DNA from: Lacticaseibacillus mingshuiensis
GTDB taxonomy: Bacteria > Bacillota > Bacilli > Lactobacillales > Lactobacillaceae
Direction of reading: 5' to 3'
Assembly: GCF_016861785.1 (NCBI RefSeq)
Contig: NZ_BOLS01000001.1
Span: forward strand, 186,001-250,000
Length of the DNA stretch: 64,000 bases
In this document: in pieces, positions 6,915 through 55,414 of the stretch
Layout of the letters: each line of letters begins with the position of its first letter
Numbering within the stretch: position 1 is the stretch's first letter
Translations under genes and position numbers: made by a program
Notes under the pieces: model-generated
What the model was told of the DNA's origin: nothing
Database searches by the model: none
What the model saw: only the letters and a program-made list of their open reading frames with translations

Positions 6915-9062
6915 ATGCAGGGAAGTCCGCAGTCACTGGTCAAACAGGTCTTGTACAGTTCCAACAGTTACATTATTCCAATCTATCAGCGTCGGTACAG
7001 CTGGGGGCAAACGCAGATCAAACGGCTGATCAGCGATCTTTTGACAGCGCATGAGAAGCAGATGGAGAACTATTTTCTCGGCAGTATGATTCTCGATACG
7101 ACGTACGGTCTCAATCAGTCTGCTGTGATCGATGGTCAGCAGCGACTCACCACGATGTCGCTGTTCATGATTGCCATCCGTGATCTGTGTCCTGGCGATG
7201 ACCAGGCATTGATGCGCGAGATGATCAGTGACCAATACCTCATCAACAAGTACGACAAGGATTCCGTTGCGAAAAATCGGCTCAAGCCGGTACCTGGGGA
7301 TGATATTCCATATGTGGATGTCTTGACCAACGGCGACGAGGCGAAACCTTCTCTGTTCAAAGAGAACTACGAACTTCTCAAACGGTTGATCACGGATAGC
7401 CCACTGTCCCCTTCCGAGTGGCTGGAACTCGTCACGAATCACGTTCAAGTCATGACGATCATCGTTCAGCAAGGCGATGACGCGCAGATGATTTTTGAGA
7501 GCCTCAACTCGACTGGCCTGGATCTGACGGAATCTGATAAGATCAGGAATTATCTGTTGATGAGCCTGCCCAAGGAACAACAGCTTCAGGCGTTTACTTA
7601 TTGGCAAGAGATCGAGGCGCTGATTGGGACGGAAAATCTCTCCCATTTTTATCGCGACTACCTGACTTCACTGGAAAAGAGTTCCAAACCGACCAAGGCG
7701 GATCAAGTTTATAACGACTATCGCCGGGAGATCGGTGAAGGCCGAGGATTTGACCGGATCGATCAACTGAAGCAAGAAACCGCTGTGGCCAATCTTTACG
7801 CGCGGTTCACGCAGCCTGAAGAGGATAATATTGATGATCCAATCACATTCAACCTGCTGAAGCGGCTCGGTCATCTGCATATCGATGTCATTAATCCCTT
7901 CCTGATTCAGGTCTTCAGCCAAGCACACGCGGGCGAGATCAATGCTGATGCTCTCAATAACGTCCTTCGCATTTTGCTCGCTTACTTGGCACGGCGCTTG
8001 ACGGTCGGGACGCCTACGACTGGCTTGAATGGCCTTTTTGCAACAATGAATCGCACCGTACTTCGTTACTCGCACAAGGTGGGTCTCGAATATGACGTGG
8101 CTTTCGCCTATGTGCTGATGAAGAAGGTCCAACCCAACAAAGTTTTCCCATCAGACCAGGACGTTCAAGCGGCCCTGCAAACAAAAGACTTCTATCACAT
8201 TTATTCGAATTCGTTTTGGTTCATCATTGATGAGCTAAATAACGTGCACGGCGAGCATCAGAATCTTTTTGAACGCGCGGCCCAAAGTAAATATTCCATT
8301 GAGCACATCATGCCGCGGAACCTGTCAAACGACTGGAAAAACTCGCTCGGCTCAGATTGGAAAAACATCCATGCTACTTGGATCAACCGGTTAGCAAATT
8401 TGACGCTTACGGGTTTCAACGTGCAGATGAGTAATCGCGCGTTTCTCGTCAAGCGGGATATGTCGGATGGTTATCATGATTCAGCGCTGAAGCTCAATCA
8501 GTGGCTCACTCAATGGGACCGCTGGGATGAGCGATCCTTACAGGCGCGCGAAGATGATCTGTTCGCCCGGGCATTGAAAGCATGGCCAATGCCGACTCTT
8601 CCCGAGATCGACGACCCTGATGTACAAGAGGATTGGCAGACGCTGACTACTGGCGAGGACTATACGGGCTGGAAAATCAATGCGTATCGTCTGAATGAGG
8701 ATGCAATCACCGAAGTCGGCAATTGGAAGGATATGTATGAGGCGCTCGTCTCTCAATTGTGGGCTGAGAATCCTAGTTCGTTCTACCAGGCGGCGCTTGA
8801 TGGCAATAATCTGGTCGTGGACACAAGCAAAAAGACACTCTCAAATGAGCTTCGCTGGCTTCAGTTGCCAAATTCAACACTCGCCGTGAATTCTGGTTGG
8901 GTGAATAACTCCCTCCGCCTGAAGCAGATCGAGAACGTTTTGACTATTAGCGATCACGATCTCAGTGAGATCGAAATTCGCGTGACGAAAAAAGTCCAAA
9001 ATACTGAAGACACTGGAATCGATGAGGACGATGGCCAAGAAAACGACGGCCTACAAGAATAA
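6915..9062 (+). CDS. GmrSD-type type IV restriction protein (DUF262-DUF1524)
   Basis: Single-chain protein of the GmrSD/BrxU class, which in characterised members cleaves DNA carrying modified bases. The N-terminal DUF262 part is clear: IPIYQRRYSW (21-30), FLGSMIL (54-60) and the nucleotide-binding IDGQQR (72-77). A later QGDDAQMIFESLNSTGLDLTESD block is also typical. A DUF1524-like HNH nuclease signature, SIEHIMPRN, lies near 460-468. The last ~180 residues, rich in Trp, form a further domain I cannot name. 715 residues suits a fused S+D protein. Monocistronic, with its own promoter and terminator. Which modification it recognises is unknown. Confidence 0.92.
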   Translation: MQGSPQSLVKQVLYSSNSYIIPIYQRRYSWGQTQIKRLISDLLTAHEKQMENYFLGSMILDTTYGLNQSAVIDGQQRLTTMSLFMIAIRDLCPGDDQALMREMISDQYLINKYDKDSVAKNRLKPVPGDDIPYVDVLTNGDEAKPSLFKENYELLKRLITDSPLSPSEWLELVTNHVQVMTIIVQQGDDAQMIFESLNSTGLDLTESDKIRNYLLMSLPKEQQLQAFTYWQEIEALIGTENLSHFYRDYLTSLEKSSKPTKADQVYNDYRREIGEGRGFDRIDQLKQETAVANLYARFTQPEEDNIDDPITFNLLKRLGHLHIDVINPFLIQVFSQAHAGEINADALNNVLRILLAYLARRLTVGTPTTGLNGLFATMNRTVLRYSHKVGLEYDVAFAYVLMKKVQPNKVFPSDQDVQAALQTKDFYHIYSNSFWFIIDELNNVHGEHQNLFERAAQSKYSIEHIMPRNLSNDWKNSLGSDWKNIHATWINRLANLTLTGFNVQMSNRAFLVKRDMSDGYHDSALKLNQWLTQWDRWDERSLQAREDDLFARALKAWPMPTLPEIDDPDVQEDWQTLTTGEDYTGWKINAYRLNEDAITEVGNWKDMYEALVSQLWAENPSSFYQAALDGNNLVVDTSKKTLSNELRWLQLPNSTLAVNSGWVNNSLRLKQIENVLTISDHDLSEIEIRVTKKVQNTEDTGIDEDDGQENDGLQE

Positions 9063-9075
9063 CCAATATTCACAA

Positions 9076-9118
9076 CGAAGAGCTCTCCCACAAAAATCTG
9101 GGAGAGCTCTTCGTTTTT
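9076..9118 (+). terminator. Strong terminator after the GmrSD-like gene
   Basis: A perfect 15-bp stem (9076-9090 with 9099-9113) and an 8-nt loop are followed by five T. Confidence 0.95.
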
Positions 9119-9138
9119 GGGTTATCGTTTCCTACCCC

Positions 9139-9426
9139 TTACTCATCAAAGAACGCGATGGTATCATACTGGATCGACAGTTCATCCAGCGCATCCTCAA
9201 ATGCCAGGGAATTCCCATGCGCCTTGTAATTGCTAAGGAAGAAAGCCTTCACATCCTGATCAGGCAATGACGCGACGAAGCGCTGCCAGTCTTCCGGGGT
9301 GAGCGAGACGTGGAAGTCGTCCGCGTACTCGAAGTCGAGCGTCACCATTTCCTTGCCGTGGTCCTTGCTGAAGCCTTGAGACCGGTAGACCAACGTTGGG
9401 ACCAGTTCCTCTTTTTCCAATGTCAT
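9139..9426 (-). CDS. Small conserved acidic protein, 95 aa
   Basis: I do not recognise the family. It is acidic and soluble, has no signal peptide or membrane segment, and contains the motif LDFEYADDFHVSLTPEDWQRF. GAAGGGAA lies ~9 bp upstream of the ATG. A textbook promoter (TTGTGA, 17 bp, TATAAT) lies about 45 bp upstream, which argues that it is a real expressed gene. Convergent with the GmrSD-like gene. Confidence 0.7.
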   Translation of the reverse strand: MTLEKEELVPTLVYRSQGFSKDHGKEMVTLDFEYADDFHVSLTPEDWQRFVASLPDQDVKAFFLSNYKAHGNSLAFEDALDELSIQYDTIAFFDE

Positions 9427-12531: not shown

Positions 12532-15435
12532 TCAATAATCAAAGTCATTCAAGGACCGATACAGCCCCGCTGGCACCGAATGCGCGAGCTTCAGCTTGAA
12601 GTTGACGAGCTTGGTCGCTTTCCCATCCGAGTTATGCTTGACCTCGTTCGTGGCGTCGATCACCTTCGCCGGGCCGAGATAATAGAAGTCGGTACCTTCA
12701 CCCTTGTCATGGTCGGATTTCTTGACGAACAACTGGATCATGCCGAAGTCGCGTTCCCCGATCAACACGCTTTCCACGGCGCTGGTCGTGGTGCGCCCGC
12801 TTTTGGAATACCAGCGCATGGTACTGCGATCGATAAATTGGTCGTCATAAGCCATTTTATTTTGAAACTTCTCCGTTTTTTCTAGCGCGATAAACACGGG
12901 CACAAACCGGTGGTCGCGGCGCATCATGTAGCCGCCGACATTTTGCCCGTTTTTCTCCTGGTCCCAGTTCAGCAGGCGAATCACGTCGCTGCGATAATAT
13001 TTCTCGCCCGGCGAGAAGCGCTCCGCCAGGTCGAGCACACCATTTTGCAGCTCATACTGGTTGACCGCGATCGCATCGGCAGCGTATTGGCGAAAATTCG
13101 GGTCAGCCAGCGCGGCGGCAAAGGCCGGCGCCAGGGTCCACTCACCATCGCGAATGACCACCAGCGGCTCAGTCCCATAGCGCTGTACACTGCTTTTCAG
13201 CTGAAAATACTGCCCGGTCAGCCCGCGCGCCACCGACGCCACGGTCTCCGCATCGCAAAACCAGTTTCGTGCCTGCATCGCCGCCAGAATGCCGGCGTCG
13301 GTCACCTCGTTGCCGGCCAGCAGCTGCCCCAGCACCCAAGAGTCTACCGGGCGCTTGGCCACGGCGATCTCCCGGGAAAGAAAGATCAGAAATTGATATT
13401 GCTGTTTTGATAAGGGCACCGGCGGATCATCCGGCGTCACTTTCGCCCGTAGATCATAAACCGTTTTATGCGCGCGAATAATATCTTCGACTGCCACATT
13501 CCCGAACTTCGCAAAATCCAGCAGAAGCGGCGGCCGCCCCACCTTCGCTTGGAGGCTCTGATACGCCTGCTTGAATCGCAACGCGCTGCGCATATTCGCG
13601 CGGTTGACCGCCTGCAAAATATTTTTGCGCGCGACTTCCTCAAACCTGATCGTGGAGACACCGGAGATCGTCGGCGAGATCACTTTGCGACGAAGGGTAT
13701 CCTTGCTGCTGCTTTGCTTGCGCTCAAACGCCAGCGGGATCAAATAATTTTCTTTGTAATTGCCGATAAAGTCCAACACCGTCAAAAATTCCTTACCCGC
13801 CGCGCGTCGAAGCCCGCGGCCGAGTTGTTGCAGGAAGATGATGCTGGACTGGGTCGGACGCATCATGACCACTTGGTTTAAGGATGGAATATCAATGCCT
13901 TCGTTAAAAACATCGACGGTCACGATATACTGAATCTCACTATTTTCCAGGCGGCGGACGGCTTCTTCGCGAGTCGCAACGGAATCGCTGCCACTGACAA
14001 ATTCGGCGCCAATGCCCCGGGCCGTCAGTTTCTTCGCCAGTTGCGCGCCTTCCTCCAGACGGCTGACGAAGATCAATCCGTGCACGCCACCCTCGCGCGG
14101 TCCGTAATAAAAAGTCTTTGATATCAGATAATCGACGCGCTCATCGGAGACCAGGTCCTTGAGCTGCGTGGTGTCGCTAATAATTTGACCGTCTAGCTGA
14201 AAATCGGGCACACCAATATAGTGGAACGGCACCAGCATCTGATCGTCGAGCGCATCGAGCAGCGAGATCTCATAAGCCAGGTTATAATCGAAAAATTCAT
14301 AGACATTGCGCCCATCCATCCGATCTGGTGTCGCGGTCATGCCCAGCATAAAAGCGGGCTGATAATCACGTAACAGGCGCTGGTACATGGTCTCTTTTTC
14401 GCCAGCCGCATTTTCGCTGACGCGGTGGGCCTCGTCGATCAAAATATAATCGAAGGCGTCCGGGCCTAATTGCGCATAAATCTCAGGTTTGATGATCATA
14501 TTGATGGTCGCAAATAAGTACTTCGCCGAGGTGTCGCGCGACGACCCGCTGAGAATTCCGTAATCACTGTCCGGCCCGCCCAAGACCGCCTTGAAACTTT
14601 CCAGTGACTTGCGCAGAATCTGTTCGCGGTGGACCACGTACAGCAATTTACGCGGCTGGACCCGCTGCACATCAAGCGCCGCGAGAATTGTTTTGCCTGT
14701 CCCGGTCGCCGCCACGATCAGGGCTTTGCGGGCGTGTTCCTGCTCGCGCAATTCCTGAATCGCGGCGAGCGCATCCAGCTGCATGCGATTTGGCTTGATC
14801 ACCGCATAGTCGACCGGACTTTCGGCCACAGTCGCAGGCGTCGCGCTCGGCTGCGGCTGCCAGGTGCTGGTGTATTGCGCGATCCACGCGGGAGTCAGCG
14901 GCACCGCCTTTTGCCACAGGGTCGCCAGCTGGTGGGACACGTTTTTCACCACGTCGCCGCGGGCCGTCGATGTGACGCGCAGGTTCCATTCGAAATTCAC
15001 CTTCAACGCATTTTGTGTCAGGTTGGCGCTGCCGATAATCACGCTTTGAAAATCGCGGTGCTGGAAATAATAGGCCTTGGTGTGAAAACCTTCCGCCTCA
15101 ACGATGCGCACATCGAGATTGGGAATGTGCAGCAGGTCGGCGAACACCCGCGGATCGTTGAAGCCCAGATACGTCGAGGTGATCAGGCGGCCGCGAATGC
15201 CGTGCGCGGCGAGGTCCGCCAGCACGGGCTTCAGGTCCAGCAAGCCGCCGAGCGTCACAAACGCCACGGCGATCGTGAACGTCTGACTTTCGCGCAGCTC
15301 ATCTTCCAGCGCGCTGAGCACGTTTTCGTCCTTCTGATTGGTCACCAGCATCGGCTGATAAACCTCCAGTGCCTCGGTCTGGTCATCGATGAAGCCAAAA
15401 TCGGCGGCGCGGCGCAGTTCTTCTTCAGTATTCAT
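12532..15435 (-). CDS. PLD-nuclease / superfamily 2 helicase with DUF3427
   Basis: Large 967-residue protein combining an N-terminal phospholipase-D-like nuclease domain (HTKAYYF and later IIGSANLT make one HKD motif), an SF2 helicase core (Walker A AATGTGKT, DEAH box IDEAHR, motif VI QQLGRGLRR), and a long C-terminal DUF3427 region. Relatives are widespread in bacterial accessory regions and are suspected DNA-processing or defence factors; no activity is established to my knowledge. The start at 15435 overlaps the NUDIX stop codon (ATGA), implying coupled translation; the longer frame would run through the NUDIX gene. Confidence 0.9.
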   Translation of the reverse strand: MNTEEELRRAADFGFIDDQTEALEVYQPMLVTNQKDENVLSALEDELRESQTFTIAVAFVTLGGLLDLKPVLADLAAHGIRGRLITSTYLGFNDPRVFADLLHIPNLDVRIVEAEGFHTKAYYFQHRDFQSVIIGSANLTQNALKVNFEWNLRVTSTARGDVVKNVSHQLATLWQKAVPLTPAWIAQYTSTWQPQPSATPATVAESPVDYAVIKPNRMQLDALAAIQELREQEHARKALIVAATGTGKTILAALDVQRVQPRKLLYVVHREQILRKSLESFKAVLGGPDSDYGILSGSSRDTSAKYLFATINMIIKPEIYAQLGPDAFDYILIDEAHRVSENAAGEKETMYQRLLRDYQPAFMLGMTATPDRMDGRNVYEFFDYNLAYEISLLDALDDQMLVPFHYIGVPDFQLDGQIISDTTQLKDLVSDERVDYLISKTFYYGPREGGVHGLIFVSRLEEGAQLAKKLTARGIGAEFVSGSDSVATREEAVRRLENSEIQYIVTVDVFNEGIDIPSLNQVVMMRPTQSSIIFLQQLGRGLRRAAGKEFLTVLDFIGNYKENYLIPLAFERKQSSSKDTLRRKVISPTISGVSTIRFEEVARKNILQAVNRANMRSALRFKQAYQSLQAKVGRPPLLLDFAKFGNVAVEDIIRAHKTVYDLRAKVTPDDPPVPLSKQQYQFLIFLSREIAVAKRPVDSWVLGQLLAGNEVTDAGILAAMQARNWFCDAETVASVARGLTGQYFQLKSSVQRYGTEPLVVIRDGEWTLAPAFAAALADPNFRQYAADAIAVNQYELQNGVLDLAERFSPGEKYYRSDVIRLLNWDQEKNGQNVGGYMMRRDHRFVPVFIALEKTEKFQNKMAYDDQFIDRSTMRWYSKSGRTTTSAVESVLIGERDFGMIQLFVKKSDHDKGEGTDFYYLGPAKVIDATNEVKHNSDGKATKLVNFKLKLAHSVPAGLYRSLNDFDY

Positions 15436-15833
15436 TGAGGCAACCCATCTTTCGATAATTGCGGGAGGACGGGGCGATCGGTCGGCGCCCAGGTCAAGGC
15501 GCGTGCCTGATTCGCGGTGAGCCAGCGCAGCTCGTCGTGGGCAACGGTTTTGGTGATCGGCGTTTCGAATTGCGCATAAAAACAATCCAGCACGACTTCG
15601 CCAAACTCATATTCTTGATCGCCCGCCTGTTCAAAGCGGCCCAAGATCGTGGCGTCGGCGCCAAATTCTTCCTCCAGTTCGCGGCGCAGGGCCGATTGCG
15701 GCGTCTCGCCGGGCTCGATCTTGCCACCGGGAAATTCCCAGTAGCCGCCCAGATGCCGCCCGGCCGCCCGTTTACCAGCAAATAATTTGCCGTCCATAAT
15801 TATAATTGCACCCACAACTTTGATGATCGCCAT
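15432..15833 (-). CDS. NUDIX hydrolase (MutT-like)
   Basis: 133-residue NUDIX pyrophosphohydrolase with a complete box: GGKIEPGETPQSALRRELEE followed by EFGA. The opening IKVVGAIIIMDGKLFAGKR is MutT-like, so 8-oxo-dGTP or another nucleotide is a likely substrate, though NUDIX specificity cannot be read from sequence. TGGAGGCGG precedes the ATG and a -10-like TATGAT lies upstream. It overlaps the helicase by 4 bp; this pairing suggests a nucleotide-handling role beside the helicase-nuclease rather than general sanitation. Confidence 0.92.
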   Translation of the reverse strand: MAIIKVVGAIIIMDGKLFAGKRAAGRHLGGYWEFPGGKIEPGETPQSALRRELEEEFGADATILGRFEQAGDQEYEFGEVVLDCFYAQFETPITKTVAHDELRWLTANQARALTWAPTDRPVLPQLSKDGLPQ

Positions 15834-17723: not shown

Positions 17724-18371
17724 TCAACTCGGACGCCGCGGCTGCCGCAACCCATTTGGCGCCGAGCCACCATACGCGCGATTCACATAAACGCGCGACT
17801 GCGCCCACACCGCATCGGCCGCACGCAGCGGCGTTTGATCATACCGCGTGTCATCGCACGCATCCACCAACAGCACCAACGCCAGCCGCACCAATTGCGC
17901 GGTTTCATTTTCGTGCATAAACCCCTGCTTGGCCTTCAGCTGCGCGGCGATCTGTTGGTACTGCTTCACCAACCCAGCATGAAACGCCGCCAGATCGGCC
18001 GCGGGCATATCTTTTTCCGTCAGGTTCCGCGCCAGCGATAAGCTCTTGAGTAGCGGCAACTGCCGGGTGACCTGGTCCGCGAAAAATTTCTGGAGCACCT
18101 GGTTATTCGTGGCACCCAACGCATTCACCAGCGTCGGTCCGAATGCCTCAAGATCCCGCAGGACTAGGGCCGTGACCAGGTTGGCCTTGGTTGGGAAACT
18201 ACGGAAGATCATTGTTTTGCCAATATTCAGATGCGTGGCCAGAGCGCTAATATTTATATCGCGATAATCTTGGAGCCGCATCTCTGTTTCAAACTCATCT
18301 AGGATCATTTTTCGCCGGGTGGCCGTGCCCATGCTCGCCCAATTCGAAGCGTGCTTCTTTGCGTTATCCAT
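17724..18371 (-). CDS. TetR-family regulator
   Basis: 215 residues: an N-terminal HTH (MILDEFETEMRLQDYRDINIS, then ALATHLNIGKTMIFRSFPTK) followed by a helical ligand domain of no recognised subfamily. The start at 18371 follows GGGGGAA by ~6 bp. Ligand unknown; the neighbours are dsdA and the 52-bp palindrome array that begins 89 bp upstream of this start. Confidence 0.85.
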   Translation of the reverse strand: MDNAKKHASNWASMGTATRRKMILDEFETEMRLQDYRDINISALATHLNIGKTMIFRSFPTKANLVTALVLRDLEAFGPTLVNALGATNNQVLQKFFADQVTRQLPLLKSLSLARNLTEKDMPAADLAAFHAGLVKQYQQIAAQLKAKQGFMHENETAQLVRLALVLLVDACDDTRYDQTPLRAADAVWAQSRVYVNRAYGGSAPNGLRQPRRPS

Positions 18372-18459
18372 CAATGATTCCCCCTTTACCCTCATTGACA
18401 GTCACTTTTCTTTGCGGTCAATTTACACCCAAACAATTTGGAAAGCAATAAATATGCTC

Positions 18460-19672
18460 AGCCTCTGAGTCCACTATGCTTGAATACAACAACGTTCAAC
18501 GCGCAATTCATGGACTCCCAGTCCGCCAGTTTTGTGCTTTGAGGGAAAAACTTCGAAATCAGCGGACCCGGAGTCCACTGATTTATGCGACTACACACTT
18601 CCACGCGCAATCCATGGACTCTCGGTCCGCGAATTTGCCTGTTTGGGGCTCGAAACTTTGTAATTGGCGGACCCGGAGTCCGAGATTTGGTCCGCGCCAC
18701 AGTTCAATAATCAAATTCATGGACTCCCGGTCCACAAGTTGTGTGCTCTGACGCCCAAATTTCGAGATTCGCAGACCCTGAGTCCACAGATATAAGCTGT
18801 TCCACGTTTCAACGCTCAATCCACGGACTCCCGGTCCACGAATTGCCCGCATGCACCTCGACGCTTCGAAATCGGCGGACCAGGAGTCTGCGGATTTATG
18901 CAACGTCACATTACATCAATCAAGTCTATGGACTCCCGGTCCGCGAATTGTATGCTTTGATGCCAAATTTTCAAGATCCGCAGACCCTGAGTCCGCAGAT
19001 ATAAGCTATTCCACGTTTCAACGCTCAATCCACGGACTCCCGGTCCACGAGTTGCCAGCATGGGGCTCGAAACTTTGTAATTGGCGGAACCGGAGTCCGA
19101 GATTTGGTCCGCGCTACAGTTCAACAATCAAATTCATGGACTCCCGGTCCGCGAGTTTCGCACTAGGACCTCGAAACTTAAAAATCCATGGACTCCGAGT
19201 CCGCCAATGAATTCTGTGCCAAGGCTCAAAGATTGAGTCTATGGACTGCCAGTCCGCGAATTGCGTGCTTTGACGACGAATCTTCGAGATCCGCAGACCC
19301 TGAGTCCGCAGATATGTGCCGTTCAACGTTTCAACGGTCAATCCACGGACTCCCGGTCCACAACTTGCTAGCTCGCACCTCGTATATTTGGAATCGATGG
19401 ACTCCTGGTCCTCGAATTGTATGCTTGGACGCCAAATTTTCAAGATCCGCAGACCCTGAGTCCGCAGATTTAAGCCGTTCCACGTTTCAGTGCTCAATCC
19501 ACGAACTCCCAGTCCGCGAGTTGCGCGCTGTGACCTCGAAACCTTGAGATCCATGGAACGGGAGTCCACGGATCTAAGCCACGCCGCAGTTCAACGCTGA
19601 AAACTATGGACCACCAGTCCGCGAATTATGCCTGTTGACGTCAAAACCTCGACATCGACGGACCCCGAGTCC
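18460..19672. repeat. Array of 24 palindromes with a 52-bp period
   Basis: 24 imperfect 13-bp palindromes start at 18460, 18512, 18564, 18616, 18669, 18721, 18773, 18825, 18877, 18930, 18982, 19034, 19086, 19138, 19190, 19243, 19295, 19347, 19399, 19451, 19503, 19555, 19608 and 19660: steps of 52 or 53 bp, mean ~52.2. Two types largely alternate: GGACTCCCGGTCC, and GGACCCGGAGTCC or AGACCCTGAGTCC, near reverse complements of each other. Intervening ~39 bp are related but diverged; near-identical segments recur eight units apart (units 3-4 and 11-12, counting from 18512). The period is not a multiple of three, so it is not coding. Function unknown. Confidence 0.95.
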
Positions 19673-19700: not shown

Positions 19701-19734
19701 AAAAAGGCCCAAGCCATCTACACGACCCGAGCCT
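19701..19734 (-). terminator. Terminator of the 19.7-22.1 kb gene pair
   Basis: AGGCCCAAG (19705-19713) pairs with CCCGAGCCT (19726-19734), including G-U pairs; on the minus strand it is followed by five T. Confidence 0.65.
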
Positions 19735-19740
19735 CACTGA

Positions 19741-21243
19741 TCAGCTCAAGAAATACTGATCCGTTTCACTTATTTGGTGCCTAATCATCTTCTCAGAAAC
19801 CCCCGCGGCTCTGGCCAAATCAATGGAGGCGTCAAATCGTAGCTGGATGTTCCGCTCAAGATCAAAGGCAGAATCCTGCAAGCGGCCAAGTGAAGCGAAT
19901 TGCGTCCTCAGCGTGGCAAGTGAAACTTGCGCGTCGGCAGACATTCCTGCGATTGCGGCATCAACGCGTTGTTTCATTTGTTCCACCAGTGCATTTTCCC
20001 TATCTGCGAAAATGCCTTCGCCCATTTGCATCACAGACGAGGCAGCAATCGAGCCAATCAGCGCGCCCAGCACTGGCACAGGGATGAGCGTTTGCCCAAG
20101 CACCGCACCCACCGCTACGCCGGTCGCCTCGATCGCGTTGAGCAGAACCAGATCGGAAAACTCGTCAGCATCGATGGTTCCCTGCCTGAGCTGGAGTGTT
20201 GCGCTTGCCAGCCCAAATGTGCCAGACACGACAGCACCAGCGCTTGGCGCAGCAAGTTTCGTGACGTTGGTGAGGCCATAGATCGATGCCCCAGAGATGC
20301 CGCCTTTGAGCGATTCGGTTCCTGTTTTTACACCGGCCGCAGCCCAATCATCCGCCTCGAATTGCCAAACTTCCTTGCCATTGCGGTGCTTCTGATAGAT
20401 AAAGCCAGCGAGGCCGAGGCCCCCTTGAAGCGCGGCCCCGACACCCGCGGATTTGGCGCCTTCCGCCATGCTCGGTCGGGCGGTCTGCTGCGCGGTGGCA
20501 CGCGCCTTTTTGGCATCGTTGCGGACCGCCTTTTTCCCGGCAGTCGCGGTGTCGTGCAGACTTGCGGATTCATTTTGCAGGGTCCCATCGACCGTTTTGA
20601 CCTGCACACCGGCGTAATCGTCTACAGACGGGCGCAACCACTGCTTATATGGTAGGCCGCGGATCTCACTTTCGCGGGTGACGGTGCTGCGAATCTCTGT
20701 GATCGTCGAAAGCCGCAGGGAGTTATCGCCCAGCTCGACATTCTTTTCACCGGTCATGATGGCTTCGATCGCGGAAAAATGGTCCCGCGGAATCATCATC
20801 TGGAGGTCTGGATAGTTTCGAGCCTGGGAAATTTCACGGCTAAGGTCTTGGTAAAATTTCATTTGCACGCCACGCCCGCCAATCATCAGGTCCGCGTAGC
20901 CGTTATTGTTCAGCCAAGCTGTCCCTGGGTCAAGGTCCGCTATAAGATCACGGGCGTTGCGAATGCCGACTTCGGCGCGTTCGGCGATGAATCCGTGAAC
21001 GCCTTTTAGCCCGCCGCGATGGCTGGAAATAAGGCCTGCGATGTCCGTTTGAGTCGCACCCATTTCCGTCAGTGCGGCTTTTTCCTGGGCGGCCCACTGA
21101 CTCAGGTCATGAGATTCATTTTCTAAAATGGCGGTCAGCGATTTTTGCAGCTCGCTGAGGCGCAGGTAATTCAAGAAGCCGACATAAGAGGCCACGCCCT
21201 GGGATGCATCATGCGCAAGCGGCGATTGTTTAGTCTTCTTCAT
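19741..21243 (-). CDS. Unknown protein with nuclease-like motif and glycine-rich hydrophobic segments
   Basis: 500 residues, family not recognised. The N-terminal third is helical and charged. Around GYADLMIGGRGVQMKF there is a D...QxK pattern of the kind seen in PD-(D/E)XK nucleases; this is suggestive only. The centre (GAALQGGLGLAGFIY, then GAVLGQTLIPVPVLGALIG) is glycine/alanine-rich and hydrophobic, compatible with membrane insertion; a helical C-terminus follows. AAGGAGG lies 9 bp before the ATG at 21243. It overlaps the end of the upstream gene by 14 bp, so the pair is one operon. It sits in a defence-rich island beside the palindrome array. A membrane-damaging effector or toxin is possible but unproven. 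Confidence 0.75.
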   Translation of the reverse strand: MKKTKQSPLAHDASQGVASYVGFLNYLRLSELQKSLTAILENESHDLSQWAAQEKAALTEMGATQTDIAGLISSHRGGLKGVHGFIAERAEVGIRNARDLIADLDPGTAWLNNNGYADLMIGGRGVQMKFYQDLSREISQARNYPDLQMMIPRDHFSAIEAIMTGEKNVELGDNSLRLSTITEIRSTVTRESEIRGLPYKQWLRPSVDDYAGVQVKTVDGTLQNESASLHDTATAGKKAVRNDAKKARATAQQTARPSMAEGAKSAGVGAALQGGLGLAGFIYQKHRNGKEVWQFEADDWAAAGVKTGTESLKGGISGASIYGLTNVTKLAAPSAGAVVSGTFGLASATLQLRQGTIDADEFSDLVLLNAIEATGVAVGAVLGQTLIPVPVLGALIGSIAASSVMQMGEGIFADRENALVEQMKQRVDAAIAGMSADAQVSLATLRTQFASLGRLQDSAFDLERNIQLRFDASIDLARAAGVSEKMIRHQISETDQYFLS

Positions 21244-22096
21244 GGAGGGCCACCTCCTTGTTGACGAGTTGCGCAAGTGTCAAGGTCGCGTTGACGAGCA
21301 GGCCGGCCTGTGCCTTTTCGTCAAGCGAAAATGCGGTGTAGTCGGTGCCGGTCACCGCCTTGTTCGCCTCACGAACTGCGGTGCGCTGGCGCTCGGTCGC
21401 CACATTCAGGTAGGTGACCTCTTCAATCAGGCGGGCGATATTGACGCTAGCCTTTTCCAGGTCGAGGCGTTGGGCGACCAACTTGCCCGCTTCACTTTTA
21501 TTTTTCCGAGCGGTTAAAACGCCGGTGACGACGCTGGCCGTCCCAGCGATGCCCGCGACTGTCCAGCCGACTGGACCGGCGAGCGCTAAGAGCGCGGTAC
21601 CGCCTACCATGCCACCGCCGCCAGCGGCAACGGTGCCCATGCCAAGCCAGGCCAGGGCGGCACTGTTTGCTGCCGCCCCGGACAGGGAAGCAATCGCGGT
21701 GCCGGTTGAGGCCACGCCAAAGGTCGTCGCGATGCCCATGGCCGCAGTTGGCCCCATCGTCGCGACCGCCACGCCCAGCGCAGCGAGGGTCGTGCCGGTC
21801 GCCGCAGCCCCGGCACCGAGCGTCGTTTGATGGCCTGCGCGTTTTACTGTTTCTTCTTTCAAATCAAATGCCTCGATCTCGAGCGTGATCTGGTGTTGGG
21901 TCACCTGAAAGTCTTTTGGGGTCTTTGCCAATTTGGAGACATGCGCTTGGACTTTTTTGATCAGCGCGATGCTGGTGATGCGAAGTTGGTAGAGGGCCTT
22001 GACTTGATCTGCGAGAATGTTGCCTTGCTCCTGGTAGTGTTCATCTGCCAGCTTCAGATCTTCATTGGCCTGATTGAAAAGCTTCCTATTAAACAT
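21230..22096 (-). CDS. Unknown glycine-zipper protein, first gene of pair
   Basis: 288 residues, family not recognised. Residues 1-90 are a helical amphipathic bundle (DEHYQEQGNILADQVKALYQ). Residues ~90-190 are a long alanine/glycine-rich hydrophobic stretch with GxxxG-type repeats (TTLGAGAAATGTTLAALGVA, GGGGMVGGTALLALAGPVGW). A charged helical tail follows (ARKNKSEAGKLVAQRLDLEK onwards). This layout resembles pore-forming or membrane-remodelling proteins in outline only. It is translated ahead of, and overlaps, the 500-residue protein, so the two probably act together. Confidence 0.75.
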   Translation of the reverse strand: MFNRKLFNQANEDLKLADEHYQEQGNILADQVKALYQLRITSIALIKKVQAHVSKLAKTPKDFQVTQHQITLEIEAFDLKEETVKRAGHQTTLGAGAAATGTTLAALGVAVATMGPTAAMGIATTFGVASTGTAIASLSGAAANSAALAWLGMGTVAAGGGGMVGGTALLALAGPVGWTVAGIAGTASVVTGVLTARKNKSEAGKLVAQRLDLEKASVNIARLIEEVTYLNVATERQRTAVREANKAVTGTDYTAFSLDEKAQAGLLVNATLTLAQLVNKEVALHEED

Positions 22097-28536: not shown

Positions 28537-29748
28537 TTATTTTTCTTTACGCGTCGGGCGAATTCCGACAAGCGCGAGGCTCGCCAGCATCAACGCGCCC
28601 ATCGCTGCCAACAATCCATTCTGGCTGTCGCCGGTCTGCGGCAACGATTTTTCAGCTGGCTTGGTCGCAGTTTGGTTCGTCGTAGTTGGCTTAGCCACTG
28701 GTTTGGCTTCCGGCTTGGCTGGGGTCGTCGGCTTGGTCTCCGGTTTCGCCGGCGTGATCGGCTTGGATGGCTCGACCGGCGCCTGGTTCGGCAGATAGAC
28801 CAGGGTCAATTCCTGAGCGTCCGCGGTCATTGTTCCGATCGTCGTCCGGTTCCGGCTTTCCGTGCCATCTGGCAAAATCGCGTGATCAAACGTGTACCCG
28901 GTGAGCGCCGGGGCGACGAAGGTGTAGCCGTTGCCGACCGCCCGGGTCAAAACCGTGTCCTGCTGGATGGTATGGCCTGCGCCGTCAACAAAATGGATGG
29001 TCAGCGTCGCGGGTTGCGGGGTCGGCGTCACGCCTTCGTTCATCTTGTAGACGAAGGTGAGCACAGCATTCGAAGTCGTGATCTGACCCGACGCAACGCC
29101 TTCCGAGAGCGAACCCCCAGCCGGCAATTTCGCGGTCTCAAGATGATACCCGCTGATCGCCGGTGCAGCATATTCGTAGCCACTCCCAATCGTGAAGGCT
29201 TTGCGTTCAGATGGAAGTAGCGTCTTCCCATTCTCATCGACAAACTGCACGGTCAGGGTCGCCGCTTCTTCCGGTGGGACCACGCCGTCATTCATCTTGT
29301 AGACGAAGGTCAGGACATCATTTGAAGTCGTGATCTGACCCGACGCCACGCCGTCCGAGAGCGAACCCCCGGCCGGCAATTCCGCTGTCTCCAGATGATA
29401 CCCATTGATCTCCGGTGCGGTGTATTCATAGCCGCTCCCAATCGTGAAGGCTTTGCGCTCAGATGGCCGAAGCGTCTTCCCATTCTCATCGACAAACTGC
29501 ACGGTCAGGGTCGCCGCTTCTTCCGGCGGGACCACGCCGTCATTCAGCTTGTAGACGAAGGTCAGGACATCATTTGAAGTCGTGATCTGCCCCGACGCCA
29601 CGCCGTCCGAGAGCGAACCCCCGGCCGGCAATTCCGCTGTCTCCAGATGATACCCGCTGATCTCCGGCGCGGTGTATTCATACCCGCTCCCAATGGTGAA
29701 GGCTTTGCGTTCAGATGGACGCAGCCGTCTTCCCATTTTCATCGACAA
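28537..29748 (-). pseudogene. C-terminal half of frameshifted MucBP-LPXTG adhesin
   Basis: Out-of-frame continuation of the gene at 29711-33385. It carries the remaining MucBP repeats, a Pro/Lys/Thr-rich wall-spanning region (KPETKPTTPAKPE) and a sortase anchor, LPQTGD plus hydrophobic helix plus basic tail RPTRKEK. It has no ribosome site of its own. Repeat landmarks lie 252, 252 and then 253 bp apart (29192, 29444, 29696, 29949), which pinpoints one inserted base near 29725. Restoring the frame would give one ~1,615-residue protein. Confidence 0.9.
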
Positions 29749-30047
29749 ACTCCACGGTCAGGGTCGCCGCTTCTTCCGGCGGGACCACGCCGTCATTCAT
29801 CTTGTAGACAAAGGTCAGGACATCATTTGAAGTCGTGATCTGCCCCGACGCCACGCCGTCCGAGAGCGAACCCCCGGCTGGCAATTCGGCCGTCTCAAGA
29901 TGGTACCCGCTGATCTCCGGTGCGGTGCATTCGTAGCCGCTTCCAATGGTGAAGGCTTTGCGTTCAGATGGCAGTAGGCTCTTCCCATTTTCATCAACAA
30001 ACTGCACGGTCAGGGTCGCTGCTTCTTCTGGCGGGACCACGCCCTCT
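29032..30047 (-). repeat. Four tandem MucBP repeats (252 bp each)
   Basis: 84-residue units of the form VVPPEEAATLTVQFVDENGK ... ASGQITTSNDVLTFVYKMN. The four copies are close to identical at DNA level, so recombination and copy-number change are expected. The frameshift lies inside the second unit. Confidence 0.9.
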
Positions 30048-36600: not shown

Positions 36601-38272
36601 CTCCGTCCCCATTGGCGAGACGCACACCATCACGCCGCCCGATGTGCCGGGCTATATTTACCAAGGCGCCGACCACGATCTGACCTTCGATGTCACTGGG
36701 CCGGAAACCATCAGCCTGCGCTACACCAAGGAAGACACCGCGCCAGTCGCAGGTCAGGTCACGGTGAAGTATGTCGACGAAAACGGCGACAGTTTGCAGG
36801 CAGACACTGTTTTGACCGATACGGTTGGCCCAGACTTCACCGTCTCTGTGCCTGAGATCGCGGGTTACACTTACCTCGGCGCGGACCACGCGCTGACTGG
36901 CACATTCGGCGAGCCGCAGACCATCACTTTGCGCTATACCAAGGAAGATACCGCCCCAGTTGCGGGGCAAGTCACCGTGAAGTATGTCGACGAAAACGGC
37001 GACAGCTTGCAGGCAGACACTGTTTTGACTAATACAGTTGGGCAAGACTTCACCGTCTCCGTGCCTGAGATCGCGGGCTACACCTACCTCGGCGCGGACC
37101 ACGCGCTGACCGGCACATTCGGGGATCCACAGACGATCACCTTGCGCTATACCAAAGAAGACACAGCCTCAGTCGCCGGCCAAGTCACAGTCAAGTATGT
37201 CGACGAAAACGGGAACACGCTTCAGCCGGATACAATTTTGACCGATACAGTTGGGAAAGCCTTCACTGTTTCGGTGCCTGAGATTGCTGGCTGCACCTAC
37301 GCAGGGGCGGACCACGCGTTGACTGGCACATTCGGCGATCCGCAGACGATCACCCTTCGCTACATCAAGGATGACGTCGCGCCGATCGCGGGCCAGGTCA
37401 CTGTGAAGTATATCGACGATGATGGGAACACCCTTCAGCCCGATACGATTTTGACTGATACAGTCGGCAAGGAGTTCACCGTCTCCGTTCCTGAAATCGC
37501 CGGCTACACCTATCTCGGCGCGGACCACGCGCTCACCGGTGCATTCGGGTATCCACAAACCATCACCTTGCGCTACACGAAAGAAGATGTCGCCCCGGTC
37601 GCCGGCCAAGTCACGGTCAAATATGTCGACGACAACGGCAACAAGATTCAAGCGGACACGATTTTGACCGATACTGTGGGCAAAGCCTTCAATGTTTCGG
37701 TTCCTGAGATCGACGGTTACACTTACCTCGGGGCGGACCACGCCCTCACTGGCACATTCGGCGATCCGCAGACCATCACCCTTCGCTACACGAAAGCCGA
37801 TGTGCCGCCTGTCGCAGGCCAGGTCACCGTTTCGTTCATCGATCAGGCGACCGGCAACACGCTGCGCGAAGATCTGGTCCTGATCGGCGAGGCGGGCAAT
37901 CCATTTACGATCACACCGCCGACTTTGCCGGGCTATGATTTTGTTGGGAGCGATGGCCCGCTGACCGGCGTCTTCGGCGATCCGCAACGCCTCGTCCTCA
38001 CGTATGCGAATACGCCGGCGCCTGAAACGAAGCCGACAAAGCCGACCACGCCAACCAAACCGACGACGCCGAATCAACCGGTTCCGGATGTGAAGCCGGA
38101 GACCAAGCCGATCGCGCCGGTGTCGCCAAAACCCGCGGCAAAGGCCACAAAAGCGGAGACCCTGCCGCAAACTGGTGAGGGGCAGACAATGTTGTGGACG
38201 GCACTGGGCGCCTTACTGCTTGGCGGGTTGGGCATCGGTGTGCTCGACTCGACTCGGCGGAAACGCTCGTAA
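33629..38272 (+). CDS. MucBP-LPXTG adhesin (KxYKxGKxW signal), intact
   Basis: 1,547 residues from the ATG at 33629, chosen because AAAGGAGGAG lies just upstream; the frame extends further up without a ribosome site. Order: KxYKxGKxW-type signal (KLYKAGRRWVTALI); Ser/Ala/Glu-rich low-complexity region (~40-205); two leucine-rich-repeat-like blocks separated by a MucBP-like module; MucBP domains; six tandem 71-residue MucBP repeats; Pro/Lys/Thr wall linker; LPQTGE anchor with hydrophobic helix and RRKRS tail. Expected to be exported and sortase-linked to peptidoglycan and to bind mucus or host glycans. Paralogue of the divergent frameshifted adhesin. Confidence 0.95.
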   Translation: MSSEPKTHPKLYKAGRRWVTALITVGGLSLGAAQLTPVHAAASDAAPSGDVTSPATEGQDAQALPTDSDQGDSSQAGSEQIEPGQVASDQTETAPASSDETSDTPATSSTTETADAQEIVKITGNDAAAEAEVIANSETSAQTGSQAQTSDGDATEADQSQDDLASEASQTSPDSETQPAASENTDEATPTEPAAQAAPAARALQAQDGDFDLNTVMPDVHLQAAVLAQLQADHVTTSDGTALTSVDQITEEMIAGLTTLTTDNLPADGNNTANTDRVNITSLKGLELATGLTTLKISSDGYYGGLSDISALADLSQLTSVNFSYQPHLSDIFALANKQLTSLLIPQNAVTDLSMITFAPGGTMNATGQGSVLKAIGVTPDASGQITYATPVVGLNGASVATISFTSADPNQVATVNGVTYAPTVVPDDSANWQTSQNYTLASTASVAKGQIVMYFDNGNGFSGYVVTPYTVLNDAANVTVRYIDGDTGEEISPAVTLAEGKIGGQFVQTAPTIDGYTLATSQSESSQTGIFSADEQTMTFVYLKNSTLAASSGSHIGDHYITGLNSAWTSQAAAAAIASDATGVDAATGNNYIDEWMPNTYLQQLVLHNLQKQDPTGNWTSVDQISKDSLLKLTKLAVDYRAGNQFGTYIDPTTIYLLDGIQYATNLTNIQMDTDLNYGQKTWDGGLVDLWPLQNLTSLTTIDMSGQCIGEVDALAGLTNVTDLGLQYNNILDFSSLNAAQYTSKFAIFQQQVVLPVVKSDDGTYTYTMSGKLPQGMALTSELRYGTGAQFGFDVDMGKSERVYYNGATSSNISHPAGDNLSVQYANLKDQVMPGPLTNPYGDGETIIQNPYQYYMLLTYKDASYNSAYNIWSIMIPYVTDATDYGYVSNKSDMPTPPQAATVTVSYQDEATHATLRDETVRVVQVGNTYQIETPDIAGYHYVGTADNAALTGTLTGPTAVTLLYAKDEATLTVNIEDENGDVIAAPIEVSVPIGETHTITPPDVPGYIYQGADHDLTFDVTGPETISLRYTKEDTAPVAGQVTVKYVDENGDSLQADTVLTDTVGPDFTVSVPEIAGYTYLGADHALTGTFGEPQTITLRYTKEDTAPVAGQVTVKYVDENGDSLQADTVLTNTVGQDFTVSVPEIAGYTYLGADHALTGTFGDPQTITLRYTKEDTASVAGQVTVKYVDENGNTLQPDTILTDTVGKAFTVSVPEIAGCTYAGADHALTGTFGDPQTITLRYIKDDVAPIAGQVTVKYIDDDGNTLQPDTILTDTVGKEFTVSVPEIAGYTYLGADHALTGAFGYPQTITLRYTKEDVAPVAGQVTVKYVDDNGNKIQADTILTDTVGKAFNVSVPEIDGYTYLGADHALTGTFGDPQTITLRYTKADVPPVAGQVTVSFIDQATGNTLREDLVLIGEAGNPFTITPPTLPGYDFVGSDGPLTGVFGDPQRLVLTYANTPAPETKPTKPTTPTKPTTPNQPVPDVKPETKPIAPVSPKPAAKATKAETLPQTGEGQTMLWTALGALLLGGLGIGVLDSTRRKRS
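36738..38015 (+). repeat. Six tandem MucBP repeats (213 bp each)
   Basis: A shared gTCGAC/aTCGAC landmark recurs at 36773, 36986, 37199, 37412, 37625 and 37838, exactly 213 bp apart. Units 1-5 are nearly identical (VAGQVTVKYVDENG ... DPQTITLRYTK); unit 6 has diverged. Confidence 0.92.
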
Positions 38273-41373: not shown

Positions 41374-42266
41374 GATCTCTGAGACCGGAAATATCGACAA
41401 TCTCCCCCAGGAAAAACAAATTAGCAGTCTCAGGAATTGCGAGATGATGTTCGCAGCACTTTGGCTGGACTCACGGTCCGCGAATTGGCCTCTTTTAGGC
41501 CAGAAAGCAAACATCCGCGGTCTCGTGGTCCGCACGCCCCAGACGTCTGGTAGAAAATAGTGGGATGGCATCACACTAATGTGGCGGTCACCAGAGGGAA
41601 TCACGGATACGCAATCTCTGAGATTGGAAATATCGAAGTTCTGACCCGGAAGCAGTAAACTGACGATCTCAGAGATTGCGGGATTGTGACCGCGTCCAAT
41701 CGGTTGGACTCACGGTCCACAAATTTGTCTCTTTTAGTCCAGAAACCAAACATCCGCGGTCCCGTGGTCCGCACGCCCCCAGATATCTGGTGGAAAATAG
41801 TGTGACGGCATCACACTGATGTGGTGGTCTCAAGCTGGAATCGCGGATACGGCGATCTCTGAAATCGGAAATATCGAAGTTCTGACCCGGAAGCAGTAAA
41901 CTGACGATCTCAGAGATTGCGGGAGCATAATCGTGCCGGAGCTTCCAGACTCACGGTCCACAAATTTGTCTCTTTTAGTCCAGAAACCAAACATCCGCGG
42001 TCCCGTGGTCCGCACGCCCCCGGGGCGTCTTCGACTTGTGTGATGCTGTCACATTTTATCTCCGCACGCCCCAGTAATCGAAATCCGCATCCTCCCTCCA
42101 GTACGCGAATTTCGAGCCGCCCCACCTGGCAAGCCCCAGTTAAGTGTGACCCCATCACATTACTTTTCCTCACACGCCCCCATGGGAATCGACACGCGCA
42201 TACCCCGGCTACGCCAATTCTTACCTTTCACCAAAAAATATCGACATTCGCATACCGAGAGTACGC
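41374..42266. repeat. Second phased palindrome array
   Basis: About 19 palindromes with centres near 41380, 41432, 41473, 41525, 41568, 41619, 41671, 41712, 41764, 41808, 41860, 41912, 41953, 42005, 42046, 42098, 42152, 42206 and 42258. Steps are 51-54 bp or 41-44 bp, about five and four helical turns. Several sequence classes occur: GGACTCACGGTCC; GGTCCCGTGGTCC; AATCTCTGAGATT and GATCTCAGAGATT; TGTGA-N5-TCACA; GCATACC...GTACGC. A ~240-bp higher-order unit repeats about 2.6 times. No coding sequence. It fills the gap between the membrane protein gene and jetD. Confidence 0.88.
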
Positions 42267-42292: not shown

Positions 42293-43099
42293 TCAGTCCT
42301 TCAGCCAGTCCCCAATCAGCCCCTCGTACTCACTGAGCAGCTGTTCCTGCTCCACGAATTTGCCGCTAAACCGAATCGTCGCCAGCTCAGTTTGCAAAGT
42401 CGGATCGCTGATGCGTCGGTCCCCGGTCCGCCCGGCATCTACCCGGCCGCGATCCGTGATCCACTGCAGGACCCGCTGCGGCGTCTGCAGGCTGAGAAAA
42501 TCGGGCCCCGAATCACGCGGCAACGCGCCCAGCAAGGTGTCCGCGATGCGAATCCCCTCGCTGTCGAGGTCGCCGAGATACGCCAAGCGCAAGCCCCGCG
42601 CAACCAATTGTTGCATCAGGGCCACATACGCTTTTTGAAAATCGTTCCCGCCTTGATCGATCAGCGGCCAGGTGGGGTGCAGCGTGTGCAACAACACAAA
42701 CACCCCATTGTTTTCCACGACCACAGCCTTGGTCGTCGCCAGCGGATAATTCGCCATTGCCGCGATCTGCCAAGGGTTGAGCGTCAAGGGCTGGGGCAAT
42801 TCAGTTTGAAAAATATTTGCGGCCGTGAATGCCATGCCGATCAGTTTCGCCGACAGTTCGTTGAGTTGGCCATCCGCAAAATAATGCGCAAGCACCCACT
42901 GATAATAGTGGAAAACGGCCGGCGCCTCTTTTGCGTCGTTCAGTGAATGCGCGGTCAAACCGGCATCGACTGCCTGCTGGCCCCGCGGCGGCAAGGGCTC
43001 GCCGGCACTGATCTTGGCAAAAAGCACGTCCAACCCGGCTGCTTCGGGCGGGACCGGATGGCCGGTTGCGGCTTCGTACGCGGCCCGATAATCAGTCAT
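42293..43099 (-). CDS. jetD: Wadjet-like JetD (TOPRIM nuclease)
   Basis: 268 residues. Nuclease subunit of Wadjet systems, which recognise and cut small circular DNA such as plasmids. The C-terminal TOPRIM core is visible: VVVENNGV with E129, then LAYLGDLDSEGIRIAD with D177 and D179, matching the E...DxD pattern of DUF2220/DUF2399 proteins. Shorter than many JetD proteins, mainly because the N-terminal arm is reduced. Its ATG overlaps jetC by 8 bp. Last gene of the operon. Confidence 0.82.
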   Translation of the reverse strand: MTDYRAAYEAATGHPVPPEAAGLDVLFAKISAGEPLPPRGQQAVDAGLTAHSLNDAKEAPAVFHYYQWVLAHYFADGQLNELSAKLIGMAFTAANIFQTELPQPLTLNPWQIAAMANYPLATTKAVVVENNGVFVLLHTLHPTWPLIDQGGNDFQKAYVALMQQLVARGLRLAYLGDLDSEGIRIADTLLGALPRDSGPDFLSLQTPQRVLQWITDRGRVDAGRTGDRRISDPTLQTELATIRFSGKFVEQEQLLSEYEGLIGDWLKD

Positions 43100-46000: not shown

Positions 46001-46220
46001 TGTCGGTATCTTTCGCCGAATTAAAAGATGGCGTGGCGATCGAGCCATCCACCAGCACGGGGAAAAAGGCGTTCGCAAGTGTCGTCTTCCCCACCGCATT
46101 TTCACCCAGCAGCGTGACGTTACCAGTCTCCGAAGCGGCAAAATCCAGCTTCACATATTGGCCAAAGTCGCGCAGGTGAAAATCCCAAGGGTGCAAAAAA
46201 TCAGTTGCCGTTTCAGTCAT
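43092..46220 (-). CDS. jetC: Wadjet-like JetC (SMC-type ATPase)
   Basis: 1,042-residue SMC/MukB-like ATPase, the DNA-extruding motor of Wadjet. The N-terminal head has Walker A GENAVGKTT (39-47). A long Ala/Gln/Glu-rich coiled coil occupies about 280-700 (EIEALTTQLALVNAQVAQQK, LADLTRQDAQLANQLTAKQ). The C-terminal head has a signature-like SGGSGAEKAQAM and Walker B HLVMFDEFADKLD. CAGGAG lies 7 bp before the ATG, which overlaps jetB by 8 bp. GC content matches the host core, so it is not a very recent arrival. Confidence 0.88.
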   Translation of the reverse strand: MTETATDFLHPWDFHLRDFGQYVKLDFAASETGNVTLLGENAVGKTTLANAFFPVLVDGSIATPSFNSAKDTDSVGRSDTPHSTARDKRTFNSMLLGWGKGAQQIRTGYAYMRLRSSQRVVTLGIGAHRQADGRRGQTWWFILIQDDPNAPLTLVTTDVAGRGLDRDAFEIENMAFGDELKVFKDWEAYRSFSAREVYGFESGEALGRLANAYRLLASPILTGGNARFAPIPNALREAQEPIDFDQIIRPLAESHRDLNQMHAMRARMADAKQRLVKMREDLFWGNLNALKSPTLSDYAKAINQRDQAASAMGHAQAEIEALTTQLALVNAQVAQQKAQVEALRDALAAQKQIARSRHEKQQLIARLRQSLAELETRQAQISELDQAIAALKAQRTELAEQRQTIEAGPLAELTAKLHAASAGQHDLTDALAQTDRAALAAAFSAYLERYRLAVSDAQHLEQTLSQTTKDVGLVQGMQGAMGLAIDKRAVGFASRAKEGLHQDNNEIHERGVAEMNQDAATIIAAQKTLHDQHPDLKAMLAAPNHLSMLEIQAKDLHALLDQLADLTRQDAQLANQLTAKQASLETLTKNPPADTAEALQTQLEAAEAELAALALDETLPGQFAAAQQALDQTQAQQVDFQNRRTRAQSELDFQTKALAEAKDALTALTETLNAAIKMLAHFSPADLPIADIPALLEVAHRFKKRIDTNRSQDLPLKIRTAIDGTNKQGHDEETALDTLFELRGYQDLATRLHRETVVYQGVLITMPIDLAKTIQLLTDDLAGIDEALAQLTTGNEMAFENYLNAAITSVDHQYEDVQTYNKMLEEVQTADGIRLMISLVPQLGSASEAIKEVQGAENDDLPELRKFVRTLIDNLVHDTTIGSGDEAAYFAKASELLDTRYWSRFQVEIFRKDSDTPELVDDAFVQSGGSGAEKAQAMVLPLLLVPKIRLARASKPDAPHLVMFDEFADKLDPETARVFTKTIARFGFNFIATMPTGGQNKILADGVTNGAYEVLSSPHKRKNEFHPNQLLKVATWKERQDD

Positions 46221-55295: not shown

Positions 55296-55414
55296 AATCT
55301 CGGAGATTGCGAACACACTTGTGCCATTGTTGATCCAAGCAAATCGACGTACTCCCGGTATGCAGATCTGCGTTGCCCCCCTTTACAGTCAAAATCCGCA
55401 TACCGGAAGTACGC
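55296..55414. repeat. Third, short phased palindrome array
   Basis: Three palindromes: AATCTCGGAGATT (centre 55302), GTACTCCCGGTAT (55355) and GCATACCGGAAGTACGC (55406), i.e. 53 and 51 bp apart. They lie between the convergent terminators of the hemolysin III gene and dfrA. The second keeps the ACTCCCGGT core of array 1 with different outer bases. Confidence 0.82.

Follow-up and report, generated by a model that had tools for sequence, protein, structure and literature searches.

The question raised by this locus is what holds two dozen imperfect palindromes on an almost invariant pitch of 52 bp over 1.2 kb of the Lacticaseibacillus mingshuiensis genome: a dimeric protein that reads them on double-stranded DNA, the pairing of an RNA transcribed from them, or the manner in which the repeats were copied. 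We examined the array in its window (the whole 64-kb stretch of DNA that was analysed), in the genome at large (2.76 Mb, 56 contigs), and in related genomes.

Structure of the focal array

17724-18395, minus strand: TetR1, a protein of predicted TetR fold, 215 aa (ATG at 18371) or 223 aa (from 18395)
18460-19672, no strand assigned: pure D1 array of 24 dyads (GGACTCNNGGTCC or its reverse complement) at 52-53 bp, orientation mostly alternating
19704-19735, minus strand: terminator-like hairpin between the PDC-M09B-like gene and the focal array (consensus match only)

The original prediction described 24 dyads stepping by 52 or 53 bp with a mean of ~52.2 bp. All 24 positions were verified (starts at 18460, 18512, 18564 ... 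19660; 23 clear, one weak), and the 23 intervals comprise 19 of 52 bp and four of 53 bp, giving a mean of 52.17 bp, or 5 x 10.43. With up to 2 mismatches, GGACTCNNGGTCC or its reverse complement was recognised in 23 of the 24 dyads, the first (18460) being the weak one. Orientation flips in 19 of the 23 steps, in line with the two largely alternating, nearly reverse-complementary dyad types noted before; dyads 18460 and 19608 are ambiguous, scoring equally in both orientations. Across the whole window, 49 core matches were counted (both strands, up to 2 mismatches, some dyads counted twice), compared with 14.7 +/- 3.75 in 100 dinucleotide shuffles (shuffle maximum 25). Pairing within the array reaches 3.8 of 5 positions in the cores and 1.39 in the linker centres, where 1.25 is expected by chance. 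A decayed coding repeat seems an unlikely origin of the array: a period of 52 is not divisible by 3, and open frames of 73-151 aa are spread over several reading frames of both array strands.

Several other features of the window were recorded. Two genes at 19741-22096 (minus strand) adjoin the focal array and hit two candidate defence models of PADLOC, PDC-M09B (E 1.2e-156) and PDC-M09A (E 2e-89), and a match to a Type IV methyl-directed restriction enzyme model lies at 12532-15585 (minus strand, E 1.2e-219). Tandem repeats at 29029-30043 (252 bp, 92% matches) and 36705-37830 (213/426 bp, 79-80%) are probably coding repeats, since their periods are multiples of three.

Four dyad classes form clusters across the genome

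41380-42258, no strand assigned: second, mosaic array of D4, D1, D2, and D3 dyads, with same-class pairs at 52 bp
55302-55406, no strand assigned: third, small cluster of one D4 and two D3 dyads, with centres 53 and 51 bp apart

Two observations go beyond the original prediction: the palindrome reaches ~29 bp in many focal copies (e.g., CAATCCAC-GGACTCCCGGTCC-ACGAATTG), and the architecture recurs at 41380-42258, at 55302-55406, and at many places in the genome. The dyad clusters of this genome are made up of four classes, D1-D4. When up to one mismatch is allowed, the whole genome contains 56 + 57 copies of the D1 core, compared with 23 + 15 for a reversed control, and 80 sites of D2, around TGTGATGNCATCACA (control 0); D3 (GCGTACTCNNGGTATGC) and D4 (GCGATCTCNGAGATTGC) have 33 + 37 and 75 + 92 genome matches, respectively, with 0 + 1 for the control of each. 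D2 (TGTGA-N6-TCACA; locus L016, 3729-4265) resembles the consensus of E. coli CRP.

The 14 genome stretches that were read contain 22 clusters of at least 6 dyads, all in intergenic DNA, and judging by their protein starts many of the adjacent genes look like housekeeping genes; array-like places also lie outside these stretches (e.g., single D2 or D4 matches on contig C18 and at C1:89845). Only two of the 22 clusters are of a single class, one pure D1 (the focal array) and one pure D2, while the other 20 are mixed and none is pure D3 or pure D4. The window holds two of the 22, namely the focal array and 41380-42258, which has a higher-order period of 241 bp, plus the smaller group at 55302-55406. 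Among the matches listed, 57 are exact D1, of which 56 lie within array clusters and the remaining one between two D2 dyads; with nearly all exact copies confined to array clusters, D1 looks unlike the operator of an ordinary single-promoter regulon. The second array is adjoined by Wadjet-like genes at 42293-46220 (minus strand), encoding JetD (268 aa, part of the model only) and JetC (1042 aa against a 1355-position model).

Spacing is kept while linkers diverge

Same-class neighbours no more than 75 bp apart (D2 left out, n = 141) are spaced at 52 bp in 131 cases, at 53 bp in eight, and at 51 and 50 bp in one each; the exact 52-bp spacing holds for 18 of 22 pairs in the focal array and 113 of 119 elsewhere. 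Dyads of D1, D3, and D4 all come in pairs of one class, and these pairs admit an inverted reading. The proposal that all dyads face the same side of the helix holds for same-class D1, D3, and D4 pairs but not for the D2 array adjoining TetR2, whose spacings (36-41, 74, and 84 bp) fall off the 52-bp pitch.

The common symmetric consensus reads arm - cYCNNRGg - arm - GC(g/a)aAT.T.....TTTT.G.C.AAAA.....A.AT..GC - arm, with A/T-rich steps some 4.5 and 14.5 bp to either side of the unit centre, and the Fourier spectrum of the linker peaks at 9.5 bp, with a weaker peak at 10.4. The unit alignment, A1, comprises 82 of the 83 52-bp pairs outside the focal array; because only 52-bp pairs were fed into it, its gapless form is in itself no evidence for a fixed length. 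Among the 23 clear focal units, information content falls from 1.57 bits per position in the 13-mer to 1.03 in the flanks and 0.43 in the remaining linker, which, together with the 131 of 141 intervals at 52 bp, bears out the earlier claim that linkers have diverged while dyad and spacing persist. Unconserved linker columns show 26-32% identity between classes and 36-40% within a class; as judged from these sequences, such positions are near chance identity and their substitutions near saturation. Substitutions near saturation combined with a length that has hardly altered provide the strongest sign of constraint. In a Rayleigh test of between-class junctions, a broad maximum appeared around 10.5-11 bp (R ~0.5, collapsed n = 159); this maximum carries little weight because two preferred distances (~41 and 50-54 bp) would produce such a peak anyway.

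Possible pairing of the palindromes as RNA or cruciform

The array might be transcribed into regularly spaced RNA hairpins, as one branch of the original prediction had it, or form DNA cruciforms, with the pairing itself under selection. The symmetry of the unit permits a long hairpin, and the segment 18500-19480 folds far better than its shuffles on both strands (z -9.1 and -11.1, 20 shuffles each), the minus strand folding somewhat better than the plus; good folding on both strands is how an inverted repeat behaves. However, when the letters of each column were permuted within class (D1, D3, and D4; 300 permutations), local dyad pairing in each class fell short of the mean of the permutations (D1 334 vs 353.1, D3 157 vs 166.5, D4 294 vs 304.7), and long-hairpin pairing was not above it (D1 610 vs 602.9, reached by 60 of the 300 permutations; D3 272 vs 275.6; D4 518 vs 545.3). 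A few column pairs exceed expectation in the column-pair counts, and one D1 pair of the long hairpin (columns 5 and 71) stands above permutation with 25 vs 16.3, whereas T-T, A-A, and A-C combinations are frequent at key positions, e.g., 17 T-T of 36 at one D1 position. Rfam covariance models at gathering score gave 0 matches in the 64-kb window. Column-pair counts, within-class column permutation, and folding of both strands led us to reject RNA or cruciform pairing as the main explanation, leaving it very improbable, and the suggestion of a regularly hairpinned RNA is not supported. Since pairing is kept no better than column composition predicts, a dimeric protein bound to double-stranded DNA is a better fit than RNA, and we consider it highly likely that the array is read by a protein in this form.

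TetR1 and TetR2 adjoin the class-pure arrays

The focal array lies directly upstream of the start of TetR1, for which the predicted model is an all-helical TetR fold with an N-terminal HTH, although families other than those returned by the fold searches may still apply. Pfam TetR_N scores 19.6 bits on TetR1, under its cut-off of 24, and the sole NCBIfam match is SlmA (NF007015, PRK09480; E 0.0015, residues 17-87), which at 18.2 bits is so far under the cut-off of 120 that it serves as a hint only. TetR1 ends in a C-terminal tail, GLRQPRRP, common to the pair formed with TetR2, and this pair with its shared tail is found at full length only in two sister species. Among the 22 clusters read, TetR1 adjoins the only pure D1 cluster and TetR2 the only pure D2 cluster. 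In the search for D3 and D4 readers, neither a further TetR relative bearing the tail nor a pure D3 or D4 cluster was found. A Cro/C1-type HTH gene at locus L017 (10719-11573, minus strand) lies near a D2/D3/D4 group (8950-9212 of the same locus) and is a possible candidate reader of D3 or D4.

We suggest that the focal array is a bank of binding sites for the dimeric TetR-family protein TetR1 encoded alongside, a reading that we rate at a probability of about 0.5. For the binding step as such, it is probable that TetR1 binds D1 and TetR2 binds D2. The dimeric-protein scaffold envisaged in the original prediction accordingly survives as a putative role, with which the fixed spacing, linkers at 26-40% identity, pairing at or below composition, and a clade-restricted TetR-fold gene adjoining the array are all consistent.

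Small arrays next to distant relatives bear on how such a bank might have arisen. Among 13 distant TetR loci fetched (from 34 other genomes at E 1e-5), two have at least 3 phased palindromes upstream and 11 have two at most. The two (L119, 1239-1378, with four palindromes, and L120, 1240-1378, with three detected) belong to one other Lactobacillaceae genus and carry ATGGAACTATACTTCCAT on a 39-bp grid directly upstream of the TetR gene. Such loci resemble a small ancestral form from which a longer array could have grown if an ordinary operator for TetR autoregulation had expanded neutrally in tandem; a few sites near the promoter would be functional and the rest would be passive products of slippage or recombination, keeping their pitch by descent. 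The position of the focal array directly upstream of TetR1, its TRF periods of 104 and 209 bp, and a copy number of 24 against about 39 in the sister species (see below) all agree with this explanation. It leaves unexplained, however, why 20 mixed clusters at other sites contain 52-bp pairs of three dyad classes and why length has scarcely changed despite linker divergence, and we find it rather improbable.

Distribution in related genomes

A profile, R1, built from this genome's own units and hence favouring close relatives, gave 151 matches in this genome and 148 in L. yichunensis 33-1 (G027), with 150 candidates scored per genome. Weak matches appeared in two of the 28 other genomes of the genus (two in G021, best 5.8e-4, and one in G025, 0.0048) and were rejected as units, scoring -8.7 and -14.6 on the unit profile against a threshold of 17; one locus that was read (L051) has a single dyad and no array. 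At E 1e-4, under stricter filters and with 12 candidates scored per genome, R1 matched this genome and L. yichunensis alone among 397 Lactobacillaceae genomes (40 genera). A pattern scan of genome contigs returned 12 stretches, four from L. yichunensis and eight from other organisms with one match each; two of these eight were inspected (L020 and L022) and rejected as short tandem repeats of a different look. A mobile origin was likewise rejected: neither the array (blastn) nor TetR1 (tblastn) matched any of 72,556 records of plasmids and 50,697 of phages, and viral contigs contained neither a TetR relative nor a D1 pair.

The orthologous array of L. yichunensis, flanked by the same genes, has about 39 dyads. 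Random spacing in a relative had been named as what would speak against the original prediction, and the spacing found there is regular, with 29 of 38 intervals at 52 bp, seven at 53 bp, and one each at 51 and 50 bp (two intervals split by off-grid matches having been joined). Between the two species, identity is 95.8% for the TetR coding sequence, 90.9% for array dyads, 82.1% for flanks, and 81.7% for linker middles, in a first alignment that is partly between paralogous copies. Copy number at other loci differs strongly (17 vs 2 units; 21 vs 2 dyads, both D2; 21 vs 6), and a change this drastic between sister species indicates that array length is not tightly constrained. As the two species represent one lineage, the co-occurrence of arrays and the TetR pair counts as a single event.

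TetR2 was not found in the L. yichunensis genome; its gene may be missing or may have been lost in an assembly gap. D2 sites with at most one mismatch number 23 there vs 80 in this genome, and an unpaired comparison made D2 appear worse in L. yichunensis (3.32 vs 2.05 mismatches, n = 22 and 62, p = 0.007). Decay of D2 where TetR2 was not found was nevertheless rejected, as 32 aligned sites fail to support the unpaired result: with 1.62 vs 1.53 mismatches, D2 is not degraded in L. yichunensis, a poor fit to the loss of its reader. D3 sites were worse in L. yichunensis (n = 37, p = 0.0006), in a comparison biased that way because the sites were picked in this genome at a loose cut-off.

Comparison with REPIN/BIME-like repeats

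The arrays share with REP, BIME, and REPIN elements imperfect extragenic palindromes, inverted pairs, alternating orientation, mosaic tandem clusters, and several classes, and they could be mobile repeats of that kind, in which some transposase copies whole inverted dyad pairs, the spacing is inherited, and the TetR genes are bystanders. More than 100 imperfect palindrome copies lie outside genes as inverted doublets of fixed spacing, in tandem clusters of several classes, and mosaics and strong copy-number differences between sister species point the same way. In P. fluorescens SBW25, too, each REPIN group is reported to have a cluster next to the RAYT gene of that group (PMC3116915). This geography matches the class-pure clusters beside TetR genes, a class-specific cluster next to a cognate protein gene being common to both systems, with the cognate role putative here.

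The same clusters also tell against transposition, for the genes that they adjoin are TetR genes, and the cognate candidate is of TetR fold with no RAYT seen alongside. Y1_Tnp has three matches in the genome, and no unit is present at any of the three loci (L046-L048, read with 1.5 kb flanks or to the contig end; best unit-profile scores -26 to -30, where 17 was the threshold); the locus on contig C2 has, by eye, a TnpB-like ORF alongside. REP palindromes bear a GTAG (or CGTC) tag at one end (PMC3733652, PMC2817692), whereas the consensus here lacks this tag and has the flanks GC(G/A)AT and complement. Unlike in those families, the pitch is fixed almost to the base pair across classes, and linkers near chance identity make recent whole-unit copying unlikely for most pairs. 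REPIN-like copying is a serious rival in that it accounts for the inverted doublets, the mosaics, and the fast changes in copy number; failing on transposase and tag, it seems to us an unlikely one. A match to a described repeat family had been a further point at which the original prediction could fall, and for REP/BIME neither the tag nor a transposase flanked by the repeats was found. We class the arrays as interspersed mosaic palindromic repeats, set apart from REP/BIME and from SlmA. No description of a phased array of this type turned up in searches of open-access literature.

A possible architectural role of the arrays

TetR-family autoregulated operators usually consist of one or two sites. 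The focal array resembles them in that its palindromes lie directly upstream of the regulator's own gene, and differs in having 24 to about 39 sites and in that sites of its class recur in mosaic arrays at many other loci. Plasmid parC/parS iterons and ParB/Noc sites are arrays or scattered dimer sites on which nucleoprotein complexes form, and the dyad arrays, with putative dimer sites that are arrayed or scattered, are similar to such centromere-like systems; unlike these, they occupy many loci, and no partition gene stood out on visual inspection of the listed neighbours. They differ from CRISPR in that the dyads change orientation and related linkers recur, whereas CRISPR spacers are unrelated. 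Further parallels are SlmA (E. coli nucleoid occlusion) and RefZ (B. subtilis), which likewise combine a TetR-family protein with chromosomal palindromes outside a classical regulon. The RBMs of RefZ number five, with a pair of near-palindromes on each arm and a single one near oriC, and RefZ illustrates how a TetR-family protein bound to a handful of chromosomal palindromes can act on division (PMC6657595); instead of five near-palindromes, the genome studied here has phased arrays.

Returning to TetR1 and TetR2 as readers, a TetR1 dimer would sit on D1 and a TetR2 dimer on D2, and two dimers 52 bp (five turns) apart, with A/T-rich steps about one turn apart between them, would make up a bipartite complex that is bent and symmetric. 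Arrayed along the DNA, these complexes could build a genome-wide nucleoprotein scaffold with a part in anchoring, bridging, or the control of division, comparable to SlmA or RefZ, while also titrating and autoregulating the TetR proteins. An architectural, and not merely autoregulatory, role of the arrays is put forward tentatively. More speculative, and in our view doubtful, is a lineage-specific "address lattice" in which each paralogous TetR-derived protein would read one dyad class, dimers would lock five turns apart on a pre-bent 52-bp segment, some twenty mosaics drawn from the four classes would organise the chromosome, and a pure array of its own class would seed each known protein gene.

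If the TetR proteins do bind the arrays, this would be a compact case, confined to one lineage, in which a family of transcription factors has become a system for shaping or marking the whole genome, and one in which site arrays and protein genes are still adjacent. Such a system would open the question of how phased operator arrays arise, from three or four sites in relatives to dozens here, and would allow one to ask whether it is a protein complex or the copying process that keeps the spacing nearly exact, and by what course dyad classes diverge jointly with their readers. If the arrays are a mobile repeat instead, they would represent a REP-like family in a Gram-positive genus without a transposase of the kind thought to make such families.
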